Source: a virus
Length of the DNA: 42,426 bases
IMG/VR virus record: IMGVR_UViG_3300021437_000038
Span: 1 to 42,426 of that record
Direction: 5' to 3' (one strand)
Shown here one piece after another: positions 15,348 through 42,426 of the stretch (position 1 is its first letter; the number at the start of each line of letters is the position of its first letter). A model generated the notes under the pieces. That model was given only the letters and a program-made list of their open reading frames with translations. It was not told the origin of the DNA and made no database searches. The position numbers and the translations under genes are program-made.

Positions 15348-15370
15348 AAGCCAAAGCTGAAAGCTGAAAT

Positions 15371-19834: not shown

Positions 19835-19893
19835 GGGTGAAGGCGGAAACCTGAAACCTGAAGGCTGAAATATGAAATATGAAAGGCTGATAT
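19833..19893 (+). repeat. TGAAACC-type heptamer run
   Basis: GAAGGCGGAAACCTGAAACC, then TGAAGGC and TGAAATA units in seven-base register, filling the spacer between two small membrane genes. One arm only. Confidence 0.7.
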
Positions 19894-20954: not shown

Positions 20955-21233
20955 ATGGCAGCCATGAGTCTCGCATACGCCATTCGCACGGTGAGCATGC
21001 TGCCGGTGATGAACGTGGCCGTGACGCAGATCGCTGAGGACGGGACGGGACTGGATATCGCCCAGTTCTATTCCGAGGCGGATGCCCAGTTGTTCATGGC
21101 CGTCAAACGCCACGGCGGGGCTATCCCGCCCGGCGATTGGCAGCGCGTGTGCGAATGGCTGGCGCAGAAGAGGGCTGAAGGCGAAAACCTGAAACCTGAA
21201 ATTCAGCCCTCAGGTTTCATCCCTCATCCTTGA
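20955..21233 (+). CDS. Hypothetical protein with repeat-derived C-terminus
   Basis: 92 residues from ATG 20955 (ATG 20964 is also possible). The core reads AYAIRTVSMLPVMNVAVTQI, then DIAQFYSEADAQLFMAVKRH and DWQRVCEWLAQKR. The last about 20 residues (EGENLKPEIQPSGFIPHP) are translated from a TGAAACC-type repeat foldback. No family is recognised. Confidence 0.5.
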   Translation: MAAMSLAYAIRTVSMLPVMNVAVTQIAEDGTGLDIAQFYSEADAQLFMAVKRHGGAIPPGDWQRVCEWLAQKRAEGENLKPEIQPSGFIPHP

Positions 21234-24456: not shown

Positions 24457-24667
24457 GAAGTCGAGAGTCGAGAAATGGTCGAGAGTCGAAAGTCGAAAGT
24501 CGAGGGCCAGCAGGCTGGCGCTGATTTCCGGCCCTCGACCTTCGGCCTTCGACCATCGACTCCTGACCCGACTAACATGAAGTCGAAAGTCGAAAGTCGA
24601 GAGTCGAGGGCCAGCAGGCTGGCGCTTCCTTCCGGCCTTCGACCTTCGACTATCGACTATCGACCAT
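24457..24667 (+). repeat. Two heptanucleotide foldbacks between nozzle and fibre genes
   Basis: Tandem GTCGAAA and GTCGAGA units, GGCCAGCAGGCTGGCGC cores, then TTCGACC, TTCGACT and ATCGACT units. Two foldbacks of about 90 bases each are separated by CTCCTGACCCGACTAAC. A 68-codon frame here is pure repeat translation. Confidence 0.9.
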
Positions 24668-26068: not shown

Positions 26069-26178
26069 AAACGAAGGCTGAGGGCGGAAACTTGAAACCT
26101 GAAAGGAAGGCTGAAGGCGGAAACCTGAAACCTGAAATTTCAGCCCTCAGGTTTCATCCCTCATCCTTCATCCTTCAA
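26064..26178 (+). repeat. TGAAACC/TTTCATCC heptamer foldback
   Basis: Left arm: GGCGGAAACTTGAAACCTGA, then a second GGCGGAAACCTGAAACCTGA. Right arm: CAGGTTTCATCCCTCATCC followed by TTCATCC and TTCAACC. Seven-base register in both arms. Confidence 0.85.
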
Positions 26179-27047: not shown

Positions 27048-27079
27048 GGGCGGAGGGCTGAAACCTGAAACCTGAAAGG
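27048..27079 (+). repeat. TGAAACC heptamer run
   Basis: GGGCTGAAACCTGAAACCTG and AAAGG, in the spacer between the two ejection-type genes. Confidence 0.7.
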
Positions 27080-28207: not shown

Positions 28208-31200
28208 ATGCCCGAGACATTCACATTCGAGGAAGCCCTCGGACAGCCCATGGAGCAGCCGAGGGTCGAAGGTCGAGGGTCGAGCGGGACGGCTACGGCT
28301 ACGGCGCCGGACACGTTCACATTCGAGGAAGCGGCGGATCCGAGCAAGACGTTCAGCTTCGAGGAGGCGGACCGCGATCGCGCCATTCCGTTCTACGACA
28401 AAAGCTCGCCCGAACCGCAGCCGCCGGCAGACCAGCTTTTCCTGGCGCCTAAGACGATTCAATCGATCCGGCAGGGTGTCAATCCGGTGTCGCGGCCGGA
28501 GGGGAATGAGCCGGCTTACCAGGGGTTGGTGCAGGCGTTCAACGAGCCGCACGTGAAGCTGCTGCGCAGTTTCTCGGAAGATCAGAAGAAGCTGATTGAC
28601 GAGGAAGGGCCGACCTGGCTCAAGCAATTTGCCGGCGCCCACGAGAGCATTGCCAATTCGGTGAACTGGTTCACCTCGACGGCGGGGCTCGCCACGCTCG
28701 GCCTGGGCAGCGCGCCCAAAGTGGTGCAGAAAGCGGTCGCGCTGGCGTTTGCCATCGATATGGCGTCGCACCTGCCCGAGACGGGCGCGGCGATCGGCGA
28801 AGAGTTGGCCAAACCGCCCGGAGAACGCGACGAGCGCAAGCTGGCGCAGCTCAGCACGGATGCGCTGAGCACCATGGCCTTCGCCACCACGGCGGCCAAG
28901 CATGGGCTCCTGCCCACGCGCCAGGCGCCTCCGCCGGGGTCGCCGCGGCCTGATGGCCTGGTGCCCCAGGCCAGCGTGCTGCAGAAGGTTTTAAGCGCAT
29001 TGGGGCCGGTTAAACCGGGCGAGAAAGCGGCGTTCGATCCCGTGGCCGCGGCAGAGGAGCGGAACCAGGCGCGCGTGGCAATGGGACGCGAGCCGGTGCC
29101 GGTGACCGTGCCGCCGGAAGTGCCCGGGGATAAGCCGGTGCTGTTTCCTGGCGTGGTGGCCCTGCCGCAGACGGGACAGGGGCAATCGCAGCCGGTGCCG
29201 GATCTCCTGGCCCAGACGACGGCGCAGATCGAGGCGGCCAGGCTCCAGAACCAGGCCGAGGTGCAGGCGTTTGAACGGCAGAAGGCGGCGGAAGGTAGGG
29301 GATTGCCTCCTACTGTGGTGGAGGGCGGAGTTCCAGGACGCCCTGACTTGAATCAGGGGTTCGCGGCGCTCGCCCCTCCAGCGGTCGCCCCTCCAGTTCC
29401 CGAGCCGCCGGCCACTCTTGCGGCGCAGATCGAATGGCTGCGTAATGGGAAACGGGATGCGGTGCTGTTCACCCCAGGCGAAGCGTTGCCCGAGGGGGCC
29501 ACCCTGGCCGACTTCTCCAGCGTTGAGACGCCGCATGGCACTATCCTTTTCAACCCGCAGCGGATCAGCGGCACGGCCATTCTCGATGCGGTGGCGCAGA
29601 ATCGGCTGGGGGATGTGCTGGGCTATGGCATCAGCGCCAAGCCGGCGCCCGAGCAGGCCGCCGGCGTGGTAGTGGTGCGCGCGCCGGATGGCACAGAGAA
29701 GCAAGCGGTGGTGACCGACCAGGCCAACGCGCCCGCCGTGGTGCAGGCCGCCGCGAATGTGGCCGATCATGGAGACAAGATCGCCGTCGAAATGCCCGAG
29801 CAGGTGGTGCAGGGGAGAACGGCAGGAGTGTCGGGCGGGACGCCCAACACAGCGACCGGGACGGTCGCGCTCCCCGGGAAAGAGGGGGCGGGTGCGGTCC
29901 CCAGTGGTCCGCCCGTGTTCGCCCGGGATGCGGCGGCCAGTGCCATCGAGCGACTGCGCGCCAAGGCGGCTCAGCGGAATGCGCCGGTGGCTCCGCAGCG
30001 TGTGGCCATGGTGCAGACGCCCGAGGAGATTGCCGCCAATAAGGCGTGGTTCGAGGAACAACGCGCCCGCCAAGCTGAGGAGCTCCGCCGCCGTTCTCAA
30101 CCCTCAACTCCAAACGCGCAACCTGCCTGGACGCCGCCACGGGCCGAACCGGTGGTGCCGATCTCGGGCGAGGAGACAAGCGATCTTTATACGATTCGCG
30201 ATGCCGTGCGCGAGAATGGCGGACTGACAGGGCCGGACCTGGACGCCGCGCTGAAGGCCATGCGCGCCGGCCAGAAGCCCGCAGCGGTGGTGCAGGAATG
30301 GGCTGGAGGCGGTGAGCATGATGACCTGGCAAACATCCTCGAGCAAATCGCCGCCGTGCGGGATGAGGGGAACAGCGCCGAATACCGGCGGCTCCGGCAG
30401 GCGTATCAAAAGACATTCGTGCCCGGCAGGCCGAAAGTGGAGCTAACGCTGCAAGGGATCCAAAAGGCGCAGGAAAGCGGCGTGGTGCCCACGGGTGGCG
30501 TGCCGCAGGATGCCGGCGAGCTCATCTCGCGCGCTTGGGCGGACGCCAGCAAACCCGCCCGCATCGACCGCGAAGCGACGGCTGCCGCCCAGGCCGAGGC
30601 GGATCACCAGGCGTTTGTGCAGAGCCTGCAAGTGCGCGGCAAACAGATTTTCTCGGGAACCCAGCCGCTGGGCGAGATCCACACCGACCGAACGGGGCGC
30701 AGGATGCTGGTGCCCACGCCCGAAGCAGAGGCCCTGTCGCCTGAATTTCAGGCCGAAGTGCTGAACAAGGCAGGCATCGAGACTGAGCACGGCATGGACG
30801 CGGGTGAGCCGGTGCGGGACATGACGCCCGGCGAACTGGACGAACCCACCATCCGCGCCGCTCTTGACGAGATGGCAGGGCTGATTTACCGTAAATCCTA
30901 TGCCGAGCTCGGTGACATACAGCGTTACACCATCCGAACAGCGGTTGAAGACGAGCAGATTCAAGGACGGGAGCAGCGTGACCGAGCATCCGGACGGCAG
31001 CCTGGAGATCAGGGAGAACGACCTCGCGCAAAGCTGCCACCTGAGCGACTTGCCGAACAACCCACCAGTGCCAGCGGTCTGCCCGAGCAATACGAAGCCT
31101 GGCTGAGCCAGCGCTCGAATTGGGAACGCCGCATCCGCAACGGGCGGCTGGCGATCCAAACCGCGCCGCGCAACGCGGACGGCAGGATTCGCTGGAATAA

Positions 31201-34200
31201 GCTCCAGACCAGCCAGCTCAGCGCAATTTGGGATGGAGAACGCGCCGACTTGGAAAGGCGCGAGGGGCTTTCTTCGATTCTCAACGCCTCCTGGACCAGG
31301 TATTCCAAGAGTGCGGAGAGGGAATCCAGCGCGCGCCAACTCGAGGTTCTGGCAACCCAAGAAAAGGCCAAGGGCCACATTCCCGCCGTATTTCCCGAGA
31401 GTCAATGGAGCTTCCGCCGTTCCGTGCCGGGCTTTGGTGAAACCGAGCATGGCATGGACGCGGGCGACCTGGGCCTGGACGCCGGCGCGGGGATTCCGAA
31501 CTTCGACCCCTCGTTGCTGCGCGACTTGACGCAGGTGGCGGGCAACGTGATCGAGAGCGGTGCGGCGGATTTCCCGAGCTTTGCCCGGGCCATGGGGCAG
31601 GCCCTTGACGGTCAATTTGCCGAGTATTACCATGCCGCATACAACCAGGTGCGCGAGTTCACCGAGGCCGCACACCTCAAAGCGCGGATGACGCCGCGCG
31701 AGGAGACTGAACTTTATGACGCCCAAGGTAACCGAATCGCCACACCAGCCGGGCCGGCAGGACCTGGACTGGAATCGCAGCTTTCTGGAGCAGTTCGAGG
31801 AGGCGGCAGCCGTCCACGGCGGCCCGGACTTAGAGTGGTTGACGAGGGAGATTTACCAGCGGCCCGACCGATTGTCCGCAGTGGCGAATACACGGGGCCG
31901 GCCGGACTCGGCATCGATGAAACGCAGCGCAGCGCCGCCAACCTCGCCCTCACCGCGCTCGAAGACGGCAAGCCCGCGTTCCTCCTCGGGGACGGGACGG
32001 GCGTAGGCAAGACCGGCACGGAACTGGTGGTGGCCGCCCAAACGGCTCTGCGCACCAAGCTGCCCTCGTTGATCGTCACCTCGAGCAAGGAAGTCATCGA
32101 GAACCGGTTCAAGCAGGATCAAATCCGCTTTGGCATTCCCAGCCAGGGCATCGAATTCGCCACGTACAACGACCTGAGCCGTGGGACCGTCCCAAGCAAG
32201 AAGTTCGGCCTGGTGCTGTACGACGAGGCGCACAACCTCAAGAACGCGGATAGCACCCGGACCTGGAACACGCGGCTGATTGACGCGCGGCATAAAGTGT
32301 TCGCGACCGCGACGCCCATGGACAGCCCGCCGCACGCGGCCTATTTCCTGGCACAACTGACGGGCAAGACGGAAGCGGAGATCGCGCGGCGGCTGGGTTA
32401 CCATTACGAGGAGAAGATCATTAACGGGGAGATCCGTCAGCGTGCCGTGCTCGACAAAGACATGACGTGGGCGCGGGTGATCGACAACATCAAGGCCGAA
32501 CGCACATTGGCAGTGCGTAACGGGCAGCTCATCCGGCGCGAGTATCCGTTCTTTGGCGAGGTGAACTGGCGCAATGCCGAACCGCTGAACATCGACCAGG
32601 CGCAGGATCACCAGGCCATGCTCGAATACTGGGATGAGCGGATCGCCGCCACGCGGATGCCCGAAGCCCGCCGCAACCTGGCCGGCCAGAAGAGTAACGA
32701 GATATCCCGTTGGACCGAGGCGCAGAAAGCGCCTGCCGTCCTGCGCGCGCTGCTGAAGGACCTGGACCGCGGCCGGCGTGTGATCGTGTTTGGCGAAGGG
32801 GTGAACGAGACGGCCATCAAGGGACTCGAAGGCAAAGTGGTGCCGGGCATTCTGGGATACCTGGCGCGCGAGCTGGACCAGCGCGGGATTAAGTATGCCA
32901 AGATCTTCGGGCCGGACAGCGACAAGAAAGCCGCCGCGAACCGCGATTTCCAGAGCGACCATTATAAGGTGGCCCTGGCCACGCCCAAGAGCGGAGGCAC
33001 GGGGCTGGACATGGACGACATCGTGGGCGACCGCCCGCGCACGGTCCACCTGGCCACGCTGAACTGGGCGGGGGACACGTTTGACCAGATTCAAGGGCGC
33101 GTGAGCCGGCGCAACACGGCCAGCCCCTCCGAGTTCTACGTGTGGCGGCAGCCCGAAAGCTTCGGCGACCAGCGCAAACAGATCGTGGCGGACCGCAAGC
33201 TGCGCACGCTCCGGAGCATTCAAAGCGGCGAGGACTTGGACACAGGACAGTTTGAAACCAGCGCGGAGCATGGGATGGAGGAGGTGATTCACGAAATGGC
33301 CGCGGCCACTCCGGCTAGCATCGCTCCGGCGCCGCTTGTCGCCAGTTCCGAGCCTTCTCCTTCTGCCTTTGTCAAAGAGCTCGAGCACTTCCGAAGCGTT
33401 ACGGCGCCGCAGACGGCTGGCCCGCCAGCGCGTTTCGCCGCCAACCTCCTCCGCGAGCTGGGCGCGAAGATGGCCAACGAACTGGCCCGTGCCGACGTAA
33501 CGCTTAAGCCGTTCCGGCGCGACTTCGACCGCTCGCCCCTGCCCAAGGATTGGCAATACGACCCCAGCGCGCCCCTGCCACGCAACCTGGCATTCATCGA
33601 TGCGTACGAGGGCGGCGACGTCCAAACGCTTGGACCGATCGAGGCGCAGGCCGCCGCGGAATTCGCCCGGCAAAACCAGCAATGGCTGGACCGCATCCAC
33701 GCCCTGGGCACGGGTGCCTTGCAGCATGCCATCGAGAATTACTTCCCGCACCTGTGGGACAATCCCAAGCGCGCCCGCCAGGTGATCGCCGAAGCCCTAG
33801 CCAAGCGGCCGTTGGAAGGCAGCAAGAGTTTCCTCAAGCAACGGACTTACCAGCTTTTCCGCGAGGGCCTGGAGGCGGGGCTCAAGCCGGTGCATGACAA
33901 CCCGGTGGACCTGTGGATGCTCAAGAAGCGCGAGGTGGAACGCTACATCCTGGCCCGGTCGTTTATCAACGAGATGAAGGCCGCGGGGCTGATGAAATTC
34001 AATTACGTGTTCAGCCGCGTGCCGGAGGGCTGGCGCGCCGTCAAGGATCCCGCGTTCACGCAGTACGGGCCGCCGAGTGTGACGATCAAGGAAGCGTTCG
34101 ACGCCGGCATGCGGGCCAAGACGCTCGAGGTGCTGGAGCATTTGGGCGTTCCCCATAGCAGGCTGGTCAAAATAGGGGGAAAGCGCTGGGGCTTCGAACG

Positions 34201-36319
34201 AGACGTGCCCGGCGTACCGGGCACAGAGCGGATTGTGACCAAGTTCGGCGGGCCGGACTTTGTGATCTGGCACGAGCTCGGGCATGCGCTCGATAACCGC
34301 TACCGCGACCTGCGCGATACCATGACGGCCACGCCCGCCATGGAGCAGGAGCTGCGACGCCTGGCGGATCTGCGGTTCGAGGGCGAAAACATTTCGGAAG
34401 GCCGCAAGCGTTACATCCGCTCGATGCCCGAGAAGATGGCGGTGACGCTGCAGGCGTATCTCCACGCGCCGGATCGCATGGCCCAGGTGGCGCCTACGGT
34501 CAAGGCGGCGTTCGAGGGATTTCTGCGCGCGCATCCCGAGCTCAGCGAGATCAATGACATCCGCCCAAGCTTGCGCCTGGGCGTGGGCGAGGCGGAGATG
34601 CCGGTGAGCGGCTTGATCAAGCTGGGGGATTGGATCCTGCCCGAGGCGGCCACCCAGGTGGTGGATAATTACCTCTCGCCGGGCCTGAACCCGCGGCTCT
34701 GGTACCGCACGCTGCGCGAGTCGAGCAACTTGCTCAATGGGGTGCAGCTCGGGCTTTCGGCGTTTCACCTCGGGTTCACTTCGCTCGATGCCGCCACCTC
34801 GCGCCTGGCGCTGGGGCTCGAGGATGCTGTCCGCGGCGATCTGGGTCGCGCAGTTCGCACCATCGCCAGCGTGCCGGTTTCCCCGTTCACCAACATCGCC
34901 CAGGGCGCCCGGCTGCGCCGCGCGGTGCTGTCGCCGGCTTACGCGGCCACTCATCCCGAGCTGCAGCCGCTGGTGCATGCGCTCGAAGCGGCCGGCGGGC
35001 GTGTGGGGCAGGATCGGTTTTGGCGCACGGAGTTCACCCGGCGCATGCAGCGCGCGATCCGCGAGGGAACGGCCACGGGTTATCTGCGCGGCGCGCTCCA
35101 GGCGCCGTTCGCGCTGTGGGAACAGTCGATGCGGCCCATCATGGAATACGTGGTGCCGCGGCAAAAGCTGGGCGTGTTTGCCGACATGGCCAAGCGCGAG
35201 CTGCTCCGGCTGGGCCCCACGTCGGACGCGGCCACCACGCGCGAGGCGATGCGCAAGGCCTGGGATAGTGTGGACAACCGCATGGGGCAACTGGTCTATG
35301 ACAACCTGTTTTATAACCGGGCGGTGAAGGACCTGGCGTTGCTTACGTTCCGCGCCTACGGCTGGCAGCTCGGCAAATACCGCGAGGGCCTGGGCGCCGG
35401 CGTGGACGTGGCAAAAGCGGCCCGAGCGCTGGCGCGTGGCGAGAAACCCGAGTTTTCCCATCGCATGGCCTATGCCATGGCCTTGCCGATCATGGTCGGC
35501 ACGCTCGGGGGCGTGGTGAATTACCTGTTCACCGGCCAGCAGCCGCAGGAGAAAGACTGGTTCATGCCGCGCACGGGTGAGCAGGACCAGAACGGGAACG
35601 AGGTGCGCCTGAATTTCCCCAGTTACATGAAGGACGTGCTGGCCTATGCCAAGCATCCGGTGACGAGCTTTGGCCATTCGCTCAATCCGCTGCTCTCGGC
35701 CATGGCGGATGTGCTGGGCAATCACGATTTCTATGATGTGCGGATCCGCAATCCGGACGATCCGCTCTGGCAGCAGGGGAGCGACCTGGCGGCCTTTGCG
35801 GCGAAACAGTTCACGCCGTTCTCGGTGAGTGGCTTGATGAAGCTGCGCGACGACGCGGCGCCGGTCCAGAAGCAGATCATGCCGTTCTTCGGTCTCACGG
35901 TGGCTCCGTCGAGGATGACGATGACGCCCGCGCAGGCGTTGGCGGCTGAGATCACGCAGGGCTCGATGCCGCGCGAGCCGCGCACGCCCGAGCAGTTCGA
36001 CCGCGCGAAGCTCATCAAGCAGGCGGTGCAGCAGCTCAAGAACGGCAATGCGCCGGCGGCGGATGAGCTGCTCCGCGGTGGCATCGAGCGGCGCTTGCTC
36101 AACGCCGGCAGCGCGCAGGTGATCATCGATCGGCTTCGCTACAGCCCGCTGCAGTTCCAGGTCCACCACATGACGCCGGACGCGGCGATGCGCGTGTGGC
36201 GGGTGGCCAATGATGCCGAGCGCGCCCTGCTCAAGCCGATCATTGTCTCGAAGGTCGGCGGCAGCCGCACGCTGGCGCCCGAGACGGCCGCGCTTTACCT
36301 GCAGGAGCTGATGAAATGA
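28208..36319 (+). CDS. Giant polyvalent ejection protein: SF2 helicase and zincin domains
   Basis: 2703 residues. The N-terminus has three TFxFEEA motifs. A long Ala/Pro/Gln-rich region (about 240-850) is likely flexible. A superfamily 2 helicase (about 1230-1660) has Walker A GDGTGVGKT (1261-1269), DEAH box YDEAHNLK (about 1338), ATATPMDS (about 1365) and a GRVSRRN motif VI (about 1630); it resembles strawberry-notch or SNF2-like helicases of phage polyvalent proteins. A zincin-type site HELGHALD is at about 2022-2029. The C-terminal 450 residues carry hydrophobic helices and DLALLTFRAYGWQLGKYREG, as in large polyvalent-protein-associated domains. It is probably packaged and injected, remodelling DNA and cutting host or its own protein. 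EHGM motifs at about 859, 1080 and 1686 lie at module edges. Confidence 0.8.
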   Translation: MPETFTFEEALGQPMEQPRVEGRGSSGTATATAPDTFTFEEAADPSKTFSFEEADRDRAIPFYDKSSPEPQPPADQLFLAPKTIQSIRQGVNPVSRPEGNEPAYQGLVQAFNEPHVKLLRSFSEDQKKLIDEEGPTWLKQFAGAHESIANSVNWFTSTAGLATLGLGSAPKVVQKAVALAFAIDMASHLPETGAAIGEELAKPPGERDERKLAQLSTDALSTMAFATTAAKHGLLPTRQAPPPGSPRPDGLVPQASVLQKVLSALGPVKPGEKAAFDPVAAAEERNQARVAMGREPVPVTVPPEVPGDKPVLFPGVVALPQTGQGQSQPVPDLLAQTTAQIEAARLQNQAEVQAFERQKAAEGRGLPPTVVEGGVPGRPDLNQGFAALAPPAVAPPVPEPPATLAAQIEWLRNGKRDAVLFTPGEALPEGATLADFSSVETPHGTILFNPQRISGTAILDAVAQNRLGDVLGYGISAKPAPEQAAGVVVVRAPDGTEKQAVVTDQANAPAVVQAAANVADHGDKIAVEMPEQVVQGRTAGVSGGTPNTATGTVALPGKEGAGAVPSGPPVFARDAAASAIERLRAKAAQRNAPVAPQRVAMVQTPEEIAANKAWFEEQRARQAEELRRRSQPSTPNAQPAWTPPRAEPVVPISGEETSDLYTIRDAVRENGGLTGPDLDAALKAMRAGQKPAAVVQEWAGGGEHDDLANILEQIAAVRDEGNSAEYRRLRQAYQKTFVPGRPKVELTLQGIQKAQESGVVPTGGVPQDAGELISRAWADASKPARIDREATAAAQAEADHQAFVQSLQVRGKQIFSGTQPLGEIHTDRTGRRMLVPTPEAEALSPEFQAEVLNKAGIETEHGMDAGEPVRDMTPGELDEPTIRAALDEMAGLIYRKSYAELGDIQRYTIRTAVEDEQIQGREQRDRASGRQPGDQGERPRAKLPPERLAEQPTSASGLPEQYEAWLSQRSNWERRIRNGRLAIQTAPRNADGRIRWNKLQTSQLSAIWDGERADLERREGLSSILNASWTRYSKSAERESSARQLEVLATQEKAKGHIPAVFPESQWSFRRSVPGFGETEHGMDAGDLGLDAGAGIPNFDPSLLRDLTQVAGNVIESGAADFPSFARAMGQALDGQFAEYYHAAYNQVREFTEAAHLKARMTPREETELYDAQGNRIATPAGPAGPGLESQLSGAVRGGGSRPRRPGLRVVDEGDLPAARPIVRSGEYTGPAGLGIDETQRSAANLALTALEDGKPAFLLGDGTGVGKTGTELVVAAQTALRTKLPSLIVTSSKEVIENRFKQDQIRFGIPSQGIEFATYNDLSRGTVPSKKFGLVLYDEAHNLKNADSTRTWNTRLIDARHKVFATATPMDSPPHAAYFLAQLTGKTEAEIARRLGYHYEEKIINGEIRQRAVLDKDMTWARVIDNIKAERTLAVRNGQLIRREYPFFGEVNWRNAEPLNIDQAQDHQAMLEYWDERIAATRMPEARRNLAGQKSNEISRWTEAQKAPAVLRALLKDLDRGRRVIVFGEGVNETAIKGLEGKVVPGILGYLARELDQRGIKYAKIFGPDSDKKAAANRDFQSDHYKVALATPKSGGTGLDMDDIVGDRPRTVHLATLNWAGDTFDQIQGRVSRRNTASPSEFYVWRQPESFGDQRKQIVADRKLRTLRSIQSGEDLDTGQFETSAEHGMEEVIHEMAAATPASIAPAPLVASSEPSPSAFVKELEHFRSVTAPQTAGPPARFAANLLRELGAKMANELARADVTLKPFRRDFDRSPLPKDWQYDPSAPLPRNLAFIDAYEGGDVQTLGPIEAQAAAEFARQNQQWLDRIHALGTGALQHAIENYFPHLWDNPKRARQVIAEALAKRPLEGSKSFLKQRTYQLFREGLEAGLKPVHDNPVDLWMLKKREVERYILARSFINEMKAAGLMKFNYVFSRVPEGWRAVKDPAFTQYGPPSVTIKEAFDAGMRAKTLEVLEHLGVPHSRLVKIGGKRWGFERDVPGVPGTERIVTKFGGPDFVIWHELGHALDNRYRDLRDTMTATPAMEQELRRLADLRFEGENISEGRKRYIRSMPEKMAVTLQAYLHAPDRMAQVAPTVKAAFEGFLRAHPELSEINDIRPSLRLGVGEAEMPVSGLIKLGDWILPEAATQVVDNYLSPGLNPRLWYRTLRESSNLLNGVQLGLSAFHLGFTSLDAATSRLALGLEDAVRGDLGRAVRTIASVPVSPFTNIAQGARLRRAVLSPAYAATHPELQPLVHALEAAGGRVGQDRFWRTEFTRRMQRAIREGTATGYLRGALQAPFALWEQSMRPIMEYVVPRQKLGVFADMAKRELLRLGPTSDAATTREAMRKAWDSVDNRMGQLVYDNLFYNRAVKDLALLTFRAYGWQLGKYREGLGAGVDVAKAARALARGEKPEFSHRMAYAMALPIMVGTLGGVVNYLFTGQQPQEKDWFMPRTGEQDQNGNEVRLNFPSYMKDVLAYAKHPVTSFGHSLNPLLSAMADVLGNHDFYDVRIRNPDDPLWQQGSDLAAFAAKQFTPFSVSGLMKLRDDAAPVQKQIMPFFGLTVAPSRMTMTPAQALAAEITQGSMPREPRTPEQFDRAKLIKQAVQQLKNGNAPAADELLRGGIERRLLNAGSAQVIIDRLRYSPLQFQVHHMTPDAAMRVWRVANDAERALLKPIIVSKVGGSRTLAPETAALYLQELMK
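28261..28282 (+). repeat. Short heptamer insertion near the polyvalent N-terminus
   Basis: AGGGTCGAAGGTCGAGGGTC encodes RVEGRGS and separates the first and second TFTFEEA motifs. Confidence 0.6.
29313..29396 (+). repeat. GGAGGGCGGAG...CGCCCCTCC palindromic repeat, copy C
   Basis: GGAGGGCGGAGTTCCAGGAC and GCCCTGA, then GGGGTTCGCGGCGCTCGCCC and CTCCAG, with an extra CGCCCCTCCAG. In frame, giving VEGGVPGRPDLNQGFAALAP. It is the same pair of motifs as copy B but in the opposite order. Confidence 0.65.
29828..29880 (+). repeat. Dispersed in-frame palindromic element, copy 3
   Basis: 53 bases, GTGTCGGGCGGGACGCCCAA onward, with stem AGCGACC/GGTCGCGCT. It encodes GVSGGTPNTATGTVALPG in the same frame as copies 1 and 2. 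Confidence 0.75.
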
Positions 36320-36341
36320 TTTCCCGGCCCGCCGGGCGGGG

Positions 36342-36372
36342 GAAAACTGAAACCTGAAACCTGAAACCGAAA
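36342..36372 (+). repeat. TGAAACC heptamer run
   Basis: AAACTGAAACCTGAAACCTG and AAACCG, in the spacer between the polyvalent gene and the exported protein at 36378. Confidence 0.7.
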
Positions 36373-36377
36373 GACCT

Positions 36378-36983
36378 ATGAAACGATACCTGATCCTCCT
36401 GGCGGCCCTGGCCGCTGTTACCTTCACCCTCAGCGCCGTCGCTGCCACCGTGCAGCCGGTGCCGTTCCCGCCCATCAAAGCGGCCTCGATCGGCACGAGC
36501 GCGGGAACCAATCCCACCGTGGTGCTCTCGGCCAACGGTGTGCAGCCGGTGCCCGCAATCAACTATATCAACGCCAGCGCGACCGAGGACGCGGCTACCA
36601 TCGGTTTTCTGGCGGCAACCAATGGCTTGATCGTGTCCGGCAGTGCGACGTCGCGCGTATTCTTCGCTTCGACCAATGGCATTCGCAGCGGCACGGTGGT
36701 GCTGCGCCACGTGGCGAGCGATAAGTACGAGACGGCCACCATGACGGCCGGCGCCACGAACACGGCCACCTTTGCCAGCGCACCCGCGACCGCTCTGCTG
36801 GTTGGCGACCAGGTGTACGTGATGGACCTGGTGGCCACCCTGCCCGTGGGGAGTAATAGCGTGGCGTATGCCAATAGCCCGCTGGTGGTCGGCAAGCCGT
36901 GGTCGCCTGTCCTGGTGCAGATCACCGGCACAAATGCGCGCCTCTCAACGGTCACCTGGTCGTATCTGCCGCTCCAGCCTTGA
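36378..36983 (+). CDS. Exported beta-rich hypothetical protein
   Basis: 201 residues. Signal peptide MKRYLILLAALAAVTFTLSA, then VAA before TVQPVPF. The mature part is beta-rich with repeated VQPVP, ATNGL and STNGI, and a Cys-free sequence ending SYLPLQP. It is the last gene of the late operon and converges on the integrase gene, seven bases away. Its export signal suggests a role in the host envelope rather than the virion, unless the signal is exapted. No family is recognised. Confidence 0.6.
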   Translation: MKRYLILLAALAAVTFTLSAVAATVQPVPFPPIKAASIGTSAGTNPTVVLSANGVQPVPAINYINASATEDAATIGFLAATNGLIVSGSATSRVFFASTNGIRSGTVVLRHVASDKYETATMTAGATNTATFASAPATALLVGDQVYVMDLVATLPVGSNSVAYANSPLVVGKPWSPVLVQITGTNARLSTVTWSYLPLQP

Positions 36984-36990
36984 GCGAAGC

Positions 36991-38253
36991 TTATTTCGCC
37001 CAGGTGATCGGGATCTGATCGGGATCCGTGGTGCGGGATTTGATCAGGTAGAGGTAATGCTGCTCGGTCACCAGGACCGAGCTGTGCCGCAGGAAGCCGC
37101 TCGCGCTCCAGATGCCGTATTTCATGGCCACCTGGCCGCCGGCGTAGGCGCGGAGGGCGTGGTTCGTCTTGGTGGTTTCCCAGCCCAGCTCCCGCATCCA
37201 GGCGCTCACGCCACGCGTGACGCCTTCGCTTTTCTCGGTGTCGGTCCCTTGCAGGATGGTCTCCTCGGGCGCGCCGCGCCAGCCGTGTTTGCCGGCGATC
37301 CGGAGCAGGGTGCTCCAGTAGGGGTCGATGGGGCGAACCTCGAGGTAGCCACTTTGGTTCTTCACCTGGGCGGCGTTGCTCAGCATGGTGACGCCGCCTT
37401 GCTGCCGGATCCAGCCCCAGCAGACTTGTGGCAGCTCGCCGGCGCGCAGGCCGCAGGAGAGCATCAGGCCCACGGCGAGGAATTGATTGCGATCGGCCAG
37501 CTTCTTCCACTCCTCGAGCGTGCGCTGGACCAGTGCATCCGAGGGCAGCCGGTAGACCTGGCTCTTGACGCCGCGGAAGCCGTATTGCTTGAAAGCGTGG
37601 TGGAACGGGGCGAAGTCGGGCAGCGCCAGGCCGGTCTTGGCCAGCTTGGCGGCTATGAAGGGCGCCACGGCGCCGCGGGCCTGGTTGAACAGCGAGTTGG
37701 CGCTACGCTTGATCCGGACGGCTTCGCCCTGGTCGGGCGCGAGCTTGGCGCGTTCGGTGGCGAGCTCGAACCATTTCTCGGCCGTCGCCTCGTTGAGGAG
37801 GGTGGTCGAGAGCCGATCGGGCTCGGGGCCGTGGACGCGGGAGAGGACGTTGCGCAGGCAGTTGATGTAATCGGCGCGGGTGCGGTCGGCGATCTCCAGG
37901 CCGGGCAGGCGTTCGAGCGCGGCGATGAGCTGGCCCACGGTGGCGCGCTCGGGCTCGCCGGTGCGGGAGAGCAGGGCCTGGACGGCCGCCTGGTTCTGGG
38001 ACTCCACGGCGTCGATGTAAAGTTTGGCGGTCATGATGGCCGTCTCCTTGGCGTTGGTCTTGCACGAGTAGAGGTAGCGCCGCCGGCGCCGCTCGAAGTA
38101 GAGATACCAGGGCGCATCGCGCGAGTCCGAACGTTTGAACAGGCGATAATTGCGGCCGTGATGCTTGATGTAGAATTTGGGGAAGCCGGTGTCAGCAGGA
38201 GACTCAGTGGGTGACTCAGTGCTCGGCTCAGTAACCGCTGATGCAGTTGTCAT
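36991..38253 (-). CDS. int: Tyrosine recombinase (phage integrase)
   Basis: 420 residues. After an arm-binding and SAM-like N-terminal half (GRNYRLFKRSDSRDAPWYLY; RADYINCLRNVLSRVH), the catalytic domain has Arg in LSCGLRAGELPQ (about residue 268), His-x-x-Arg in TNHALRAYAGG (about 365), a second His in FLRHSSVLVTEQHY (about 390) and the nucleophile Tyr just after it (about 400). It integrates phage DNA at an attachment site, probably the tRNA-like sequence 160 bases upstream of its start. It lacks the extra alpha-I2 domain typical of integron IntI. The large + strand frame opposite is a shadow. Confidence 0.92.
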   Translation of the reverse strand: MTTASAVTEPSTESPTESPADTGFPKFYIKHHGRNYRLFKRSDSRDAPWYLYFERRRRRYLYSCKTNAKETAIMTAKLYIDAVESQNQAAVQALLSRTGEPERATVGQLIAALERLPGLEIADRTRADYINCLRNVLSRVHGPEPDRLSTTLLNEATAEKWFELATERAKLAPDQGEAVRIKRSANSLFNQARGAVAPFIAAKLAKTGLALPDFAPFHHAFKQYGFRGVKSQVYRLPSDALVQRTLEEWKKLADRNQFLAVGLMLSCGLRAGELPQVCWGWIRQQGGVTMLSNAAQVKNQSGYLEVRPIDPYWSTLLRIAGKHGWRGAPEETILQGTDTEKSEGVTRGVSAWMRELGWETTKTNHALRAYAGGQVAMKYGIWSASGFLRHSSVLVTEQHYLYLIKSRTTDPDQIPITWAK

Positions 38254-38300
38254 GGTGCTGCAGGATGCAGTGTTGATGCAGGAAAGTCAAGGTGAATTCT

Positions 38301-38322
38301 CCCGTTATATCCCGTCATATCC
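38301..38322. repeat. Tandem CCCGTyATAT repeats near attP
   Basis: CCCGTTATAT and CCCGTCATAT are adjacent (38301-38320), followed by CC. Three GATGCAG copies lie at 38240, 38264 and 38275. Short repeats between integrase and att core are where arm-type integrase sites are found. The rest of 38254-38412 holds no gene. Confidence 0.4.
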
Positions 38323-38412
38323 GAGGCCAAAAGGCGTGGCCGACTGGGCGGAATCGTGGTAATTGCCAATGAAAGCGGGGGAAACCTAATGATTGCAGGG
38401 CTGGGAGGGTTG

Positions 38413-38453
38413 TGGAGCCGAGGGGATTCGAACCCCTGACCTACTGATTGCGA
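38413..38453 (-). other. attP: Candidate attP: 3' fragment of a tRNA
   Basis: On the - strand these 41 bases read from an anticodon-loop-like TTCGCAA through a stem half TCAGT, variable AGGTC, T-arm AGGGGTTCGAATCCCCT and acceptor half CGGCTCC with discriminator A. The 5' half of the tRNA is absent. It lies beside the integrase gene, as expected for a phage that restores the 3' end of a tRNA on integration. If the loop is read conventionally the anticodon is CGC, and the T at position 70 fits alanine; this is tentative. Confidence 0.75.
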
Positions 38454-38526
38454 ACGATGGTTTTCGGGCCAAGAGACGTCGAATTTTCGGGGGGCGTGGG
38501 GTTTGGGATGCGGGTCCTAGCCATGC

Positions 38527-39051
38527 TCAACGGGATGGCGACGGTGCAAAAGGCGGCGGCTCATTCGTCCGCTGGAATTGCGCCGGCCGCGTAATGTTCG
38601 TAGCGTTGAAGCGTTGAATGGCCACTTCCATTTCCATGGCTTCATACTCTTCTCGCTGCTTTGGGGACCAGTACATTCGGGTCATGGCGTCGCGCAGTGC
38701 GTTCGTGGAGCTGTAGTAGTTTGTGATTGCGCCGCCAGATCCGACCATCATGCTCGCAAGGTAAAGGCTGATCTGAAAATCTTCGCCTATCGGAGTCCAT
38801 GCTTCAGCAAACTGCCCATCGGGTTTCTTTGGCCCCTTTAGCAGCCAACGGTTATAGAGCCACGTCTGACCTGTGGCGGTGTCGATGCGATATAGCGCAT
38901 TTCCAGTCCGAAGCCCGAAATCGCTGCCGCCCAAATCAATCGGCCCGCTGAAAAGCTGATATCGGCCAACCTGGTTCTCCATGGCTCCATCGCCGGCCAG
39001 GAGAACGGGTACGGCGCAGATCAGAAGCAACAATGGAGTCAGAGCTCTCAC
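38527..39051 (-). CDS. Exported cargo protein of the lysogeny operon
   Basis: 174 residues from GTG 39051, which overlaps the stop of the upstream RHH gene (GTGA). Signal peptide RALTPLLLLICAVPVLLAG. The mature protein has NQVGRYQLFSGPIDLGGSDF, then YRIDTATGQTWLYNRWL, a pattern seen in bacterial proteins of the form RIDT-x-TG-x-W. It also has EEYEAMEMEVAIQRF. It is expressed with the repressor genes, so probably during lysogeny; superinfection exclusion or host surface conversion is a plausible role, not shown. Confidence 0.6.
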   Translation of the reverse strand: MRALTPLLLLICAVPVLLAGDGAMENQVGRYQLFSGPIDLGGSDFGLRTGNALYRIDTATGQTWLYNRWLLKGPKKPDGQFAEAWTPIGEDFQISLYLASMMVGSGGAITNYYSSTNALRDAMTRMYWSPKQREEYEAMEMEVAIQRFNATNITRPAQFQRTNEPPPFAPSPSR

Positions 39052-39263
39052 TTCTCAACGGTAGGATCCGTTGCTGGTTTATCGTAAAGGGCCGTCGCCA
39101 GTGGAACCGGAGCAGGCGCTGCAGGTCCAAAGCGTTTCTCGTGCTCGTTCCGTATCAACTCCTCGATGAGCACCGAAAGGCTAGTGTAGCTCCTCAATTC
39201 CATCAGCGCCTCGGCCCGCTCGAGCACCTTCTTATGAAGCGTGAGGTTGACTGGCTTCTTCAT
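39048..39263 (-). CDS. Ribbon-helix-helix regulator 2
   Basis: 71 residues from ATG 39263; a longer frame to 39365 exists. KKPVNLTLHKKVLERAEALM, then SYTSLSVLIEELIRNEHEKR, matches the CopG/Arc RHH pattern: one strand and two helices with a small turn residue between. The C-terminus is Pro/Ala rich. It overlaps RHH gene 1 by 32 bases and the exported gene by GTGA, so the three form one operon. Confidence 0.75.
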   Translation of the reverse strand: MKKPVNLTLHKKVLERAEALMELRSYTSLSVLIEELIRNEHEKRFGPAAPAPVPLATALYDKPATDPTVEK

Positions 39264-39441
39264 TGGATCGCAAAAGGAGTCCTGAATCCAGACGAATTCG
39301 GGACTGAAAATAGTCTGACGGCCCGTTGAAGCCGTGCTTGTCGAGGAGCTGGTAAAGCGCGTCACAGAGTCTCGGGGGTAGAGTGATGTTTAAAGGCACA
39401 GCCGTGGTTTGGCGGTGCTTCTTCATCGTGTTAAATCTCAT
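39232..39441 (-). CDS. Ribbon-helix-helix regulator 1
   Basis: 69 residues from ATG 39441; ATG 39426 and frames to 39477 are alternatives. The 39441 start is chosen because it lies exactly seven bases after a -10 element, matching leaderless initiation. TTAVPLNITLPPRLCDALYQ and LLDKHGFNGPSDYFQSRI look like a CopG-like RHH. It is probably a repressor acting on the adjacent palindromes. Confidence 0.65.
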   Translation of the reverse strand: MRFNTMKKHRQTTAVPLNITLPPRLCDALYQLLDKHGFNGPSDYFQSRIRLDSGLLLRSNEEASQPHAS

Positions 39442-39457
39442 GCGCATACTATGCGCA
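39441..39457. promoter_or_regulatory. Operator palindrome O1
   Basis: TGCGCATACTATGCGCA: perfect 7-base arms around ACT. It overlaps the -10 element and the start codon of the leftward gene, so binding would block leftward transcription. Confidence 0.7.
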
Positions 39458-39477
39458 CAGTTAGTCCTGTTGGTCAA
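39448..39477 (-). promoter_or_regulatory. Leftward promoter
   Basis: On the - strand TTGACC (39477-39472), an 18-base spacer and CATAGT (39453-39448). Six bases separate the -10 from ATG 39441. Confidence 0.6.
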
Positions 39478-39480
39478 TAT

Positions 39481-39495
39481 CTTTCTGTCAGAAAG
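39481..39495. promoter_or_regulatory. Operator palindrome O2
   Basis: CTTTCTGTCAGAAAG: perfect 7-base arms around T, midway between the two -35 elements. Confidence 0.65.
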
Positions 39496-39498
39496 TTC

Positions 39499-39527
39499 TT
39501 GACGGTTATTTGTTTTACGCGTATTAA
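39499..39527 (+). promoter_or_regulatory. Rightward promoter
   Basis: TTGACG (39499-39504), a 17-base spacer and TATTAA (39522-39527): a strong sigma-70-type match. GTG 39534 is six bases further on, so the transcript would start at or next to the start codon. The inverted repeat GCGTATTAACGC (39519-39530, 4-base arms) overlaps the -10. Confidence 0.7.
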
Positions 39528-39533
39528 CGCGCA

Positions 39534-39776
39534 GTGAACACGTGTAGAACGAAGAACGGTGACAAGCGCGCCGCTAATTTGTGGTTGGCGGAACAGGTGA
39601 TTTCTAAAGCTGCAGATCTTCAGCAGAGGTTCCATCGGCCGTCGCTTTCGAACTTGGTGGAGTTTCTAATCATCGAGGCTCACGACCGACTGATGGCGTC
39701 TGGCGAGTCGAGTTCCCATGAACAGCGCGAGGAGGCCAAGCGCAAGCCGCAGTCTGAACCCCTGGAGGTGGCGTGA
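39534..39776 (+). CDS. Ribbon-helix-helix regulator 3, rightward
   Basis: 80 residues from GTG 39534, probably leaderless. KRAANLWLAEQVISKAADLQ, then RFHRPSLSNLVEFLIIEAHD, fit an RHH DNA-binding fold with the strand at residues 12-18. The C-terminus is charged and Ser/Glu rich. It faces RHH 1 and 2, giving a divergent switch like cI/cro but built from RHH proteins. Its stop overlaps the next start (TGATG). Confidence 0.65.
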   Translation: MNTCRTKNGDKRAANLWLAEQVISKAADLQQRFHRPSLSNLVEFLIIEAHDRLMASGESSSHEQREEAKRKPQSEPLEVA

Positions 39777-40027
39777 TGGCTGGAATTCCCAGTCTGCAGG
39801 CTGCTCAGGGTTCAATGGAGCGGTTGCACGCGCTCGAGGTGTCGGAGCCGTCGGTGACCGAGTTTATCGCGTTGCGCAATCATTGGGTCGAGCAGCTCCA
39901 GCGGGTGCATGCGGCCAAGGATCGGCTCCAGGCGGCCGAGCGCAAGGAGGCGACGTTATTTCATTCCCTTCAGGTGCTGCGCGGCAAGCTCAGCCCGGAG
40001 GCAAAACGGGTTTTGGAGGGCGCATGA
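39776..40027 (+). CDS. Small coiled-coil protein
   Basis: 83 residues from ATG 39776 (GTG 39773 is in frame). Mostly helix: FIALRNHWVEQLQRVHAAKD and RLQAAERKEATLFHSLQVLR. No family is recognised. It is part of the tightly overlapped rightward early operon. Confidence 0.6.
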   Translation: MAGIPSLQAAQGSMERLHALEVSEPSVTEFIALRNHWVEQLQRVHAAKDRLQAAERKEATLFHSLQVLRGKLSPEAKRVLEGA

Positions 40028-40134
40028 GATCGCGTGATTATCGATCTGAATGGGTGGCGGCTGGCGTGTTCACTTCCGCGTTGTTGGTGGTGACGGCGCT
40101 TTTCGTGGCGCTGGCGTTCATCCTGTATTTATGA
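40024..40134 (+). CDS. 36-residue single-pass membrane protein
   Basis: ATG 40024 overlaps the previous stop (ATGA), and its TGA overlaps the next ATG at 40131. A charged N-terminus MRSRDYRSEW is followed by one membrane helix (AAGVFTSALLVVTALFVALA, then FILYL). It could modulate the host membrane early in infection, for example superinfection exclusion. The overlaps at both ends support translation. Confidence 0.6.
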   Translation: MRSRDYRSEWVAAGVFTSALLVVTALFVALAFILYL

Positions 40135-40367
40135 GCGAGGATGCGGAAACGGTCTTGAGCCAGTTGCACGTGTGTCGCTCGCACGTGGCGGCGGTGCATG
40201 CGCATTTGTGTCATCTGCAGATGCTGGTGATGGCGGCCAGGGTGAGTGCGGCGCAGGAGGAGTTGACGCAGGCGATCGAGCTTCTGGCAGGTAAACCGAT
40301 CGATTCGTTTGCGAAGGAGCTGCCGATGGCGCGGCCGCCGAGGTTGAGGTTTCAACATGGCGATTAG
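40131..40367 (+). CDS. Small His-rich helical protein
   Basis: 78 residues from ATG 40131 (ATGA overlap). AETVLSQLHVCRSHVAAVHA and HLCHLQMLVMAARVSAAQEE carry His and Cys in one face of a helix, which might bind metal. It ends MARPPRLRFQHGD. No family is recognised. Confidence 0.55.
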   Translation: MSEDAETVLSQLHVCRSHVAAVHAHLCHLQMLVMAARVSAAQEELTQAIELLAGKPIDSFAKELPMARPPRLRFQHGD

Positions 40368-40432
40368 GTTGCACATTGATTTTCCGCGGCGGCCGGGTGC
40401 TGGTTATGAGCCTGAACCGGTCGCCGTCGGTC

Positions 40433-40507
40433 TGCGGGTAACAGCGCGGGGCGCTGGGTTGCCTCATAAGCAACACAAGGCAGGTTCGACTCCTGCACCC
40501 GCTACCA
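40433..40507 (+). tRNA. tRNA-Met-like (CAT anticodon)
   Basis: 75 bases fold fully: acceptor TGCGGGT/ACCCGCT (six pairs, 1-72 a T-T mismatch), D-arm CAGC/GCTG with loop GCGGGGC, anticodon arm GTTGC/GCAAC with loop CTCATAA (anticodon CAT), variable ACAAG, T-arm GCAGG/CCTGC with loop TTCGACT, discriminator A and encoded CCA. Position 8 is A rather than T, unusual. An unpaired 1-72 is a mark of bacterial initiator tRNA, but the three G-C pairs of initiator anticodon stems are missing. It could alternatively be an Ile-lysidine tRNA. Confidence 0.8.
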
Positions 40508-40511
40508 GTTT

Positions 40512-40565
40512 GGCTGGTGAGCCAGCCGGGCGGCAGTTATTAGGCGGCGCGCGACTGGGGTCGCG
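40512..40565. repeat. Two perfect hairpins downstream of the tRNA
   Basis: GGCTGGTGAGCCAGCC (40512-40527) and CGCGACTGGGGTCGCG (40550-40565), each with six-base perfect stems and four-base loops. The stretch 40508-40704 has no convincing gene. The hairpins may process or end the tRNA transcript. Confidence 0.5.
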
Positions 40566-40629
40566 GGCCGGCCGTCACGGACCGCACCAGCCAGTTGTTT
40601 TCCGGCGCGGCATAGAGTCGGCTTCAAGT

Positions 40630-40652
40630 CCCCATCCTCTGGGGCCTCTTTT
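40630..40652 (+). terminator. Weak candidate terminator
   Basis: CCCCATCCTCTGGGG hairpin followed by CCTCTTTT. Short stem and T-run interrupted, so only tentative. Confidence 0.3.
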
Positions 40653-40704
40653 CGACACCACTAACTCGTCCCTGCCGCGCTGGGATTCTTTTTGAGGAAT
40701 GCTT

Positions 40705-40809
40705 ATGAAACGTATCCTGCGAATTCTATTGGGCCGCACGCGCAACCGGCGCGGAACGCGGCTGGTGGTCGGGCTCCTGTCCACGGGCGCGCTGCGGAGG
40801 TGGGCGTGA
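40705..40809 (+). CDS. Small Arg-rich protein
   Basis: 34 residues from ATG 40705 with GAGGA about seven bases upstream. MKRILRILLGRTRNRRGTRL is a basic amphipathic sequence, followed by VVGLLSTGALRRWA. Its stop overlaps GTG 40806 (GTGA). It may be a nucleic-acid- or membrane-binding peptide. Confidence 0.45.
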   Translation: MKRILRILLGRTRNRRGTRLVVGLLSTGALRRWA

Positions 40810-41072
40810 AGGGCCAGGGTAAGGTGGCGCTGGCCTGGCTGGCGCGCCTGGTGTTCTTGCGGTCGCCTTTGCTGACCAAGCCGAAGGATCCGCCGCGGCT
40901 CCTCGGGAACGAAGCCGGTGCCGGGCCGGGATCGAGCCGGCGAAAGGTTTTGGAGCCGATCGCGTGTTATCGCTGGCGCATGGCGGCGTCGAGGCGGGCG
41001 CATCGGTGTCTGTGGAAGCCGGAGTTTCGGCGCGCGATGTGGCGGTGGTCGAATCGGAGGGTGACCAGGTGA
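40806..41072 (+). CDS. Basic hypothetical protein
   Basis: 88 residues from GTG 40806. GQGKVALAWLARLVFLRSPL is hydrophobic and basic. Then comes a Pro/Gly/Ser-rich middle and a very basic C-terminus (YRWRMAASRRAHRCLW, RRAMWRWSNRRV). No family is recognised. Its stop overlaps the next GTG (41069, GTGA). Confidence 0.45.
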   Translation: MKGQGKVALAWLARLVFLRSPLLTKPKDPPRLLGNEAGAGPGSSRRKVLEPIACYRWRMAASRRAHRCLWKPEFRRAMWRWSNRRVTR

Positions 41073-41476
41073 AGAAAGCAATCGCAAAACCGGAGGATCC
41101 AGCATTGCTGTCGCAGCTAAGCGCGCTCGATGCTGCTAAGGAACTGTCGGATTACGTGGCTGGCTTGAAGGAGAGCAACGCTACGCTGCTCGACAAGGTT
41201 GTAGAATTGAAAGCTGAAGTGTCTCGGCTGGAGGAGCGCCGCAAGGATGAAAGACAGGCTCAGGAGTGGGTTCGCAAAATGGCTATGGGGATGAATCGGA
41301 TGGCGGAAAAGGTGGCAGTAATCAATGGAAAGAGTGTGGCGTTTCCCTTGTTTGAAGACGTTAACGGCGGACCGCTTTTCTTTCACTATGACTGCCGATG
41401 TGCCGCAGAGGCCGAACTGTTGGCTCGGTCAGTGCGCGATAGAATGAGCTCACTTTGGTTAAAGGTCTCGCGATGA
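41069..41476 (+). CDS. Coiled-coil early protein
   Basis: 135 residues from GTG 41069, with GGAGGGTGACCAG upstream. A helix from about residue 10 to 75 (LLSQLSALDAAKELSDYVAG; NATLLDKVVELKAEVSRLEE) is followed by a C-terminal globular part with FHYDCRCAAEAELL. Base composition is less GC-rich than its neighbours. No family is recognised. The ATGA overlap couples it to the next gene. Confidence 0.55.
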   Translation: MKKAIAKPEDPALLSQLSALDAAKELSDYVAGLKESNATLLDKVVELKAEVSRLEERRKDERQAQEWVRKMAMGMNRMAEKVAVINGKSVAFPLFEDVNGGPLFFHYDCRCAAEAELLARSVRDRMSSLWLKVSR

Positions 41477-41715
41477 AAGTCCTAGAAGCCCATTACGCCC
41501 CCGCCCACGTGGCCGCGCTGTTGTTTCGGTCGGAGTCCTGGGTGATCAAGTCGCTCAAGAAGGGAGAGTTTGGCCGCTGCGTTTTTGATGGGCAGTGGTT
41601 GATCCCGGCCAGTGGCGTGAATGCCTGGATCGATCGCCACGCGATCGATTTCGATAACGGTGAGCATGCGCCCAGACCTGATGCGGTCCAGGTGCGAGGT
41701 CTCAAGCGTGGGTAG
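41473..41715 (+). CDS. Excisionase/HTH_17-like protein
   Basis: 80 residues from ATG 41473 (ATGA overlap). HYAPAHVAALLFRSESWVIK, then SLKKGEFGRCVFDGQWLIPA and SGVNAWIDRHAI, follow the helix-turn-helix and wing of excisionase/HTH_17 proteins. It may be the phage Xis, directing excision with the integrase, or a regulator of the early operon. Confidence 0.65.
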   Translation: MKVLEAHYAPAHVAALLFRSESWVIKSLKKGEFGRCVFDGQWLIPASGVNAWIDRHAIDFDNGEHAPRPDAVQVRGLKRG

Positions 41716-41740
41716 GTGTTTGTTTTTCGCGTGGTTTGTC

Positions 41741-42426
41741 ATGGATTGCCCAGAGTCCAAACGTTCGGAGTCAGAGGCGGAGAGTCAGCAGCCGGCGCTT
41801 TTTGCTGATGATGCCGTTGGGAATGCCCTGCTCCTCGACAACGCCCAGCTCGATCGGATCTGCACAGGTCGCAGCGCGGAACGTCTGAAGGGCCTGAGGG
41901 AGTTGATCCTGCTGGCGTTGGAGGCCGGCGTGGGCGTCGAGACGATCGCGACACGCGCGGGAGTGTCCGCCCAGGTGGTGCGGGCGCTGAAGTCCAATCA
42001 TTGGGAAAAAGTTGTGGGGGGTAAAAAAGAATTCGGCGCGTTGCTCCTGCAGACGGGGCTGCGCTGGATCGGGCTCGCGCGCTCGAAGGAGAACGAAGCC
42101 GAGTTCCGCGACCTGGTGATCGGCGCCGGGATCATGACGCAGCGCGGTCTGGAGGCCGCGGCGATGGGTGAGATCGTGGAGAAAGAAGATCCAAAAGAGC
42201 TGGTGGACGCCAGCCAGGTCATGGACCGCATGAAGCAGTTGTTGGCGGTCGAGGTGCCGGCTGAGGTGCCTCCGGCTGATTCTGGATCAGTTGAGAAGCC
42301 GTCAATTCCGTGCATTTCGGAGGCTGTTTCCGTGAGTGATGCAGGTCTGGATGCACGGATGCCCGGCCAGGTTGGCACGCTGGCGGTGGCGACGACCACG
42401 CCGGCCGCGGCGGCGAACCCGGTCCA
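41741..42426 (+). CDS. HTH protein, cut by the window edge
   Basis: At least 228 residues, open to the last base. A helix-turn-helix is visible at about residues 69-88 (VETIATRAGVSAQVVRALKS). EKVVGGKKEFGALLLQTGLR, LRWIGLARSKENEAEFRDLV and GIMTQRGLEAAAMGEIVEKE follow, then an Ala/Pro/Val-rich tail. The HTH-plus-helix layout would suit a small terminase subunit or a regulator; the distance from terL (about 5 kb on a circle) makes terminase less likely. It may end at base 28 if the map is circular. Confidence 0.6.
   Translation, partial: MDCPESKRSESEAESQQPALFADDAVGNALLLDNAQLDRICTGRSAERLKGLRELILLALEAGVGVETIATRAGVSAQVVRALKSNHWEKVVGGKKEFGALLLQTGLRWIGLARSKENEAEFRDLVIGAGIMTQRGLEAAAMGEIVEKEDPKELVDASQVMDRMKQLLAVEVPAEVPPADSGSVEKPSIPCISEAVSVSDAGLDARMPGQVGTLAVATTTPAAAANPV

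Follow-up and report, generated by a model that had tools for sequence, protein, structure and literature searches.

Gene order around the divergent region

IMGVR_UViG_3300021437_000038 is a 42,426-base IMG/VR phage record, analysed here over its full length (the window), and no terminal repeats were found in it. Rightward genes of the window code for a Rep-like protein, DnaB, a ParB-like protein, a probable TerL, the major head protein and a late protein of very large size. TerL and head-protein comparisons yield a single named relative, phage C75C1, whose annotation contains neither an integrase nor a repressor. Leftward genes lie near the right end, where a tyrosine integrase, a probable attachment site and three small genes face the early operon across a short intergenic gap. 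Two of the leftward genes and the first rightward gene encode proteins that resemble ribbon-helix-helix (RHH) regulators. The features discussed below are as follows.

36991-38253, minus strand: tyrosine integrase (phrog_1, E 4e-8; relatives at about 27-45% identity)
38410-38470, minus strand: truncated tRNA/tmRNA gene, 3' end only, probable attP (Rfam RF00023, E 8e-7)
38527-39051, minus strand: third leftward gene, 174 aa, with an N-terminal hydrophobic (signal-like) segment and an FDTATGRTW-like motif
39048-39263, minus strand: protein B, second leftward gene, RHH-like, 71 aa, overlapping the end of A
39232-39426, minus strand: protein A, first leftward gene, RHH-like, proposed repressor; 64 aa from ATG 39426, 69 aa from ATG 39441
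39441-39457: perfect 17-bp palindrome TGCGCATA-C-TATGCGCA, 8 of 8 positions paired, candidate operator O1
39448-39477, minus strand: leftward promoter, -35 TTGACC (39477-39472), spacer 18, -10 CATAGT (39453-39448)
39473-39503: central 31-bp inverted repeat GTCAATATCTTTCTG-T-CAGAAAGTTCTTGAC, 13 of 15 positions paired, candidate operator O2
39499-39527, plus strand: rightward promoter, -35 TTGACG (39499-39504), spacer 17, -10 TATTAA (39522-39527)
39518-39531: weak inverted repeat CGCGT-ATTA-ACGCG over the rightward -10, with 5-bp arms
39534-39776, plus strand: protein C, first gene of the rightward early operon, 80 aa, GTG start, RHH-like by model and weakly so by sequence
41455-41715, plus strand: HTH_17 / excisionase-like small protein of the early operon (Pfam HTH_17, E 0.002; phrog_1840 excisionase, E 0.01)
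15357-15383, 19838-19890, 21189-21201, 26087-26137, 27058-27077 and 36342-36372: 7-base tandem repeats
6199-6363, 11543-11695, 14274-14528 and 24459-24667: 7-base repeat arrays

The divergent region is flanked by the attP/int side and by the early genes. The fragment at 38410-38470 lies a short way upstream of the integrase, between int and the gap, and its match to the tmRNA family RF00023 scores under the Rfam gathering score. A tRNA or tmRNA 3' end that lacks its 5' part is the usual look of attP, and a similar fragment adjoins the integrase in a related phage (G010), so that this one is probably attP. If so, integration would leave the divergent region and int at opposite ends of the prophage. 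Together, the integrase and the attP-like fragment suggest an integrating phage. The integrase has no relative in the genome contigs or among the named phages searched. Proteins similar to the 174-aa product adjoin RHH genes in three related phages (L002, L021 and L028; 26-37% identity), and this gene is likely to be co-expressed with A and B. Counterparts of the HTH_17/excisionase-like protein occur in L002; a search with it returned one already known relative and nothing else.

Several other features of the window were recorded. The early region contains a tRNA with anticodon CAT (40433-40507, plus strand). The late protein (2,703 aa, 28208-36319, plus strand) has an apparent helicase-type ATP-binding stretch and no relatives among named phages or by close search of viral contigs. 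The 7-base repeats (CTGAAAC, GTCGAAG, GGCTCTC and variants) are numerous and often lie in short intergenic gaps; one form, CTGAAANCTGAAA, occurs 16 times in the window against 0.09 expected.

Promoters, start codons and palindromes

The rightward promoter, TTGACG-17-TATTAA followed after six bases by GTG 39534, is present exactly as originally predicted. It scores 8.9 with a sigma-70 matrix and is the top rightward site between the divergent genes; its -10 lacks the conserved final T. The leftward promoter, TTGACC-18-CATAGT, was likewise borne out (score 8.5), and is the only match in a simple consensus scan of 36300-42426. Only six sites in the whole window, both strands included, score at least 8.4, and the two opposed promoters are among them. 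The intergenic gap has 41% G+C against 63% for the genome; shuffles of the same AT-rich stretch give a score of at least 8.4 on both sides in 2% of cases.

The two start codons differ in how well they are fixed. GTG 39534 lies exactly 6 bases past the -10, where transcription would begin. An in-frame TAA (39525-39527) leaves it as the sole usual start that spares the predicted strand of C, since the next one, TTG 39579, would cut into that strand. The leftward frame is open to 39477 and offers starts at TTG 39477, ATG 39447, ATG 39441 and ATG 39426. Begun at ATG 39426 (MKKHRQ...), 21 bases from the leftward -10, protein A opens like its relatives (MKKHRQTTAVPLNITL compared with MEETQKRTDVRPTISL of L022). 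The leftward start is therefore ambiguous between 39441 and 39426, and equal six-base gaps on both sides, as had been proposed, are possible rather than established, because they hinge on ATG 39441 being used over ATG 39426. Of the predicted symmetry, the rightward half stands. A leaderless arrangement on both sides, as judged from these positions, is firm for the rightward gene only, and there as geometry only. The lambda cI transcript from PRM is leaderless. A missing Shine-Dalgarno sequence was considered as strong evidence for leaderless starts and rejected: about half of the window's long ORFs have no match of at least 4 at their first start, so its absence at the divergent genes says little.

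Three palindromes had been described in the gap, and two of them stand out. The central repeat (39473-39503) and the perfect palindrome (39441-39457) rank second and fourth among palindromes window-wide, and their scores, as best and second best, were reached in none of 300 shuffles (P about 0.003 each). Neither recurs elsewhere in the window, and the central palindrome is absent as such from the other loci fetched. The perfect palindrome spans the leftward -10 and the expected transcription start, and TTGAC forms both ends of the central one; the -35 boxes thus do not mirror each other independently of that palindrome. Both positions would suit operators, and the two palindromes may act as such. 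The repeat at 39518-39531, tried as a third operator, was rejected, being fourth-ranked, with 5-bp arms and at chance level.

The flanking proteins and their counterparts in related phages

None of proteins A, B and C has a Pfam or NCBIfam match that passes the curated cut-off. For B, three Pfam matches fall under it (DUF6364, E 0.005; CcdA, E 0.022; RHH_1, E 0.038); A and C have no Pfam match. Counterparts in related phages come nearer the RHH_1 cut-off, with 20.0 of 20.5 bits in L028 and 18.3 in L029. In a jackknife, an RHH profile built from relatives only was run against the 381 ORFs of the window: A ranked first of 381 (E 0.04) and B second (E 0.095), whereas C was not recognised (E 7.2). 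Of the profiles made from the RHH sets, A6 matches CopG and NikR chains by sequence, and A5 matches ORF56 and CopG chains; hhalign places C in register with A6, at a P of only 0.014. Single-sequence PDB searches with A or C returned nothing relevant, and a direct search of viral contigs with C found no match.

AlphaFold2 models were made of A and C. In A, helices at 18-31 and 36-57 follow an extended stretch (pLDDT 80), and in C, helices at 20-32 and 38-55 follow an extended segment (pLDDT 71). As monomer models, both fit the strand-helix-helix order, with helix lengths right for RHH proteins. Foldseek places NikR first for A, weakly (E 0.14), and gives nothing convincing for C. Proteins A and B are likely RHH proteins. 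For C an RHH fold is plausible, in view of its position, the extended-helix-helix model and its divergent relatives, and a Cro/Arc/CopG-like regulator is proposed. The expectation of RHH regulators on both sides is fairly supported on the leftward side and weakly on the rightward.

Relatives were gathered by integrase and TerL searches and are diverged phages (integrase identity 27-45%). In seven of them, RHH-like genes face each other or face an RHH-containing operon. Six contain divergent RHH-like pairs (L002, L022, L027, L028, L029 and L030) that adjoin the integrase or head the early genes, and in many cases one side carries a second or third RHH gene. In L021, a rightward RHH gene faces a leftward operon, a later member of which encodes an A-like RHH protein. 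Alignment of the switch-region DNA is uninformative because the regions have diverged.

The arrangement of the promoters recurs in part of this set. A mirror GTCAA...TTGAC is found in three of eight loci (the window, L021 and L030), a number that none of 4000 shuffle sets reached. The promoters of L021 are TTGACA-17-CATAAT leftward and TTGACA-16-CATAAT rightward, their -35 boxes form the ends of TGTCAAATTTACATTTGACA, and a second palindrome, TGCATAACCATTATGCA, lies over the leftward -10, its counterpart in the window being TGCGCATACTATGCGCA. The layout of L021 is the same as that of the window, in different sequence. In L030, the promoters are TTGACA-16-TACGCT leftward and TTGACG-17-TATCCA rightward, with -10 boxes ending 9 and 11 bases ahead of the start codons. 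When the best promoter was taken for each side of the eight loci, eight sides scored at least 8.4 against 1.97 expected, and five of these eight end 5-11 bases before a start codon against 0.15 expected; this placement is stable for thresholds from 7.5 to 9.0, in recurrence tests whose design and thresholds were set after the data had been seen and whose phages are to some degree related to each other. No strong promoter was found in L002 or L022, no outstanding palindrome in L022, L027, L028 or L029, and a marginal one (P 0.06) in L002. Leaderless or near-leaderless starts are thus supported as a trait of the group, to the extent that promoter placement can tell, and best for the rightward gene.

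Two further loci show repeats near RHH genes. In L029, the 11-mer TGTGGCACAAC lies at 9921-9931 and 9992-10002, near both divergent starts, and is a candidate repeated operator. In L032 (about 9025-9410), tandem RHH genes stand behind a palindrome, TTGACACGGTGTATTACACCGTGTTAGATT, placed between -35 and -10, and GGTGTATTACACC is repeated inside the second of these genes.

A probable divergent switch, its alternatives and its known counterparts

The sequences themselves show where the promoters lie, the two palindromes, and a divergent order of genes that recurs in relatives. Opposed promoters lie between a lysogeny-side and an early-side regulator, as in lambda, with candidate operators shared between them. 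The region is probably the bidirectional lysis-lysogeny switch of a temperate tailed phage, run by RHH proteins. One symmetric stretch of DNA would serve both as operator and as two-way promoter. From it, the leftward promoter would express A, B and the membrane or exported protein, taken as the lysogeny side because of their position beside attP/int, and the rightward promoter would express C and the early/replication operon, on the lytic side. Bound to the central palindrome, an RHH dimer or tetramer would mask both -35 boxes, and an RHH protein on the leftward palindrome would mask the leftward -10; the regulator of each operon could then shut the opposite promoter or its own. Proteins A and B would act as CI or Mnt, and C as Cro, Arc or CopG. 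Transcription of the rightward operon, and perhaps of the leftward, would start at or within a few bases of the start codon, and translation would proceed without a Shine-Dalgarno leader.

The relatives give good support to the original prediction of a divergent phage switch with RHH regulators, as does the lack of a detectable HTH_3- or S24-type repressor. A search for these two families, which detected its positive controls, gave no HTH_3 match above cut-off and no Peptidase_S24 in the record or nine relatives. The absence weighs less for the relatives than for the window, because some of the relatives are fragments.

The alternatives differ mainly in what they make of the early operon and of the missing repressor. 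In the first, which is unlikely, the region serves copy control or replication: C, like CopG or ORF56, would repress its own promoter, and A and B would autoregulate the leftward operon only. Joining the contig ends would place C ahead of the Rep-, DnaB- and ParB-like genes, a join that is inferred, there being no terminal repeat. Profile A5 matches ORF56 and CopG chains, and the rightward RHH protein of L029 has a match to the plasmid copy-control family ORF56 (E 2e-7, under its cut-off). However, an integrase and an attP-like fragment are signs of an integrating phage, neither ParA nor a plasmid backbone appears in the genes scanned, and an operator common to two opposed promoters is not needed for simple copy control.

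A secondary immunity module of the P22 immI kind is less likely still. Here the RHH pair would control antirepressor or accessory genes, and the main repressor would lie elsewhere, undetected. The precedent is P22 itself, where the C2/Cro switch is modulated by Mnt and Arc and lysogeny does not require immI (PMC11016777, PMC7549136). Yet immI consists of an RHH pair with an antirepressor beside C2/Cro, and the record has no HTH_3 or S24 repressor; Pfam and PHROGs scans of the neighbouring genes name no antirepressor in the operon, and the RHH genes head the early genes beside int rather than forming a late-region moron. Very improbable is a chance origin, with promoter-like boxes and inverted repeats falling in AT-rich DNA that happens to separate two ordinary small genes: the low G+C content of the gap, the missing final T of the rightward -10 and the ordinary third palindrome would suit it, but shuffles of the same stretch fail to give the two palindromes, and two diverged relatives have the mirror boxes as well.

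The RHH switch reading can be extended, tentatively and with rather less confidence, from this phage to a whole temperate lineage that would decide between lysis and lysogeny by RHH proteins only, with no CI-type repressor, its symmetric operator being the -35 region of two opposed near-leaderless promoters. Phage immunity switches that have been studied in depth rely on HTH repressors, and the RHH pair Mnt/Arc of P22 is accessory. No description of an RHH-only main phage switch was found in the open-access literature. If correct, an RHH-only primary switch would represent a separate, independent answer to the lysis-lysogeny decision, in a compact layout with two -35 boxes within one palindrome, and would give an annotation rule for the immunity regions of environmental phages that lack CI or Cro.

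Each known system shares part of this layout. Like the CopG and ORF56 systems, the window has a replication operon that opens with the gene of a small protein, RHH-like in the case of C, and a symmetric element at its promoter; it differs in having a second, divergent RHH operon and an integrase, and C itself has no significant match. With lambda (cI/cro, PRM, PR, OR) it shares regulators that face each other and divergent promoters that share operators, candidates only in the window. However, lambda's regulators are HTH proteins and those of the window RHH-like, the -35 boxes of the window are embedded in one palindrome, two RHH genes stand on the lysogeny side, and attP lies between int and the switch. 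The likeness to P22 immI (Mnt/Arc, with Ant and sar) lies in opposed RHH repressors, proposed for the window. In P22, arc and ant are repressed by Mnt, while Arc represses mnt and moderates ant (PMC11016777, PMC7549136). Beyond the fold, no sequence kinship of the window proteins with Arc or Mnt was detected. In P22, C2/Cro provides the main immunity and immI is a late-region moron, whereas the RHH genes of the window, where no C2-like repressor was found, lie between attP/int and the early operon. By analogy, the switch would resemble P22 immI, yet occupy the place of cI/cro.
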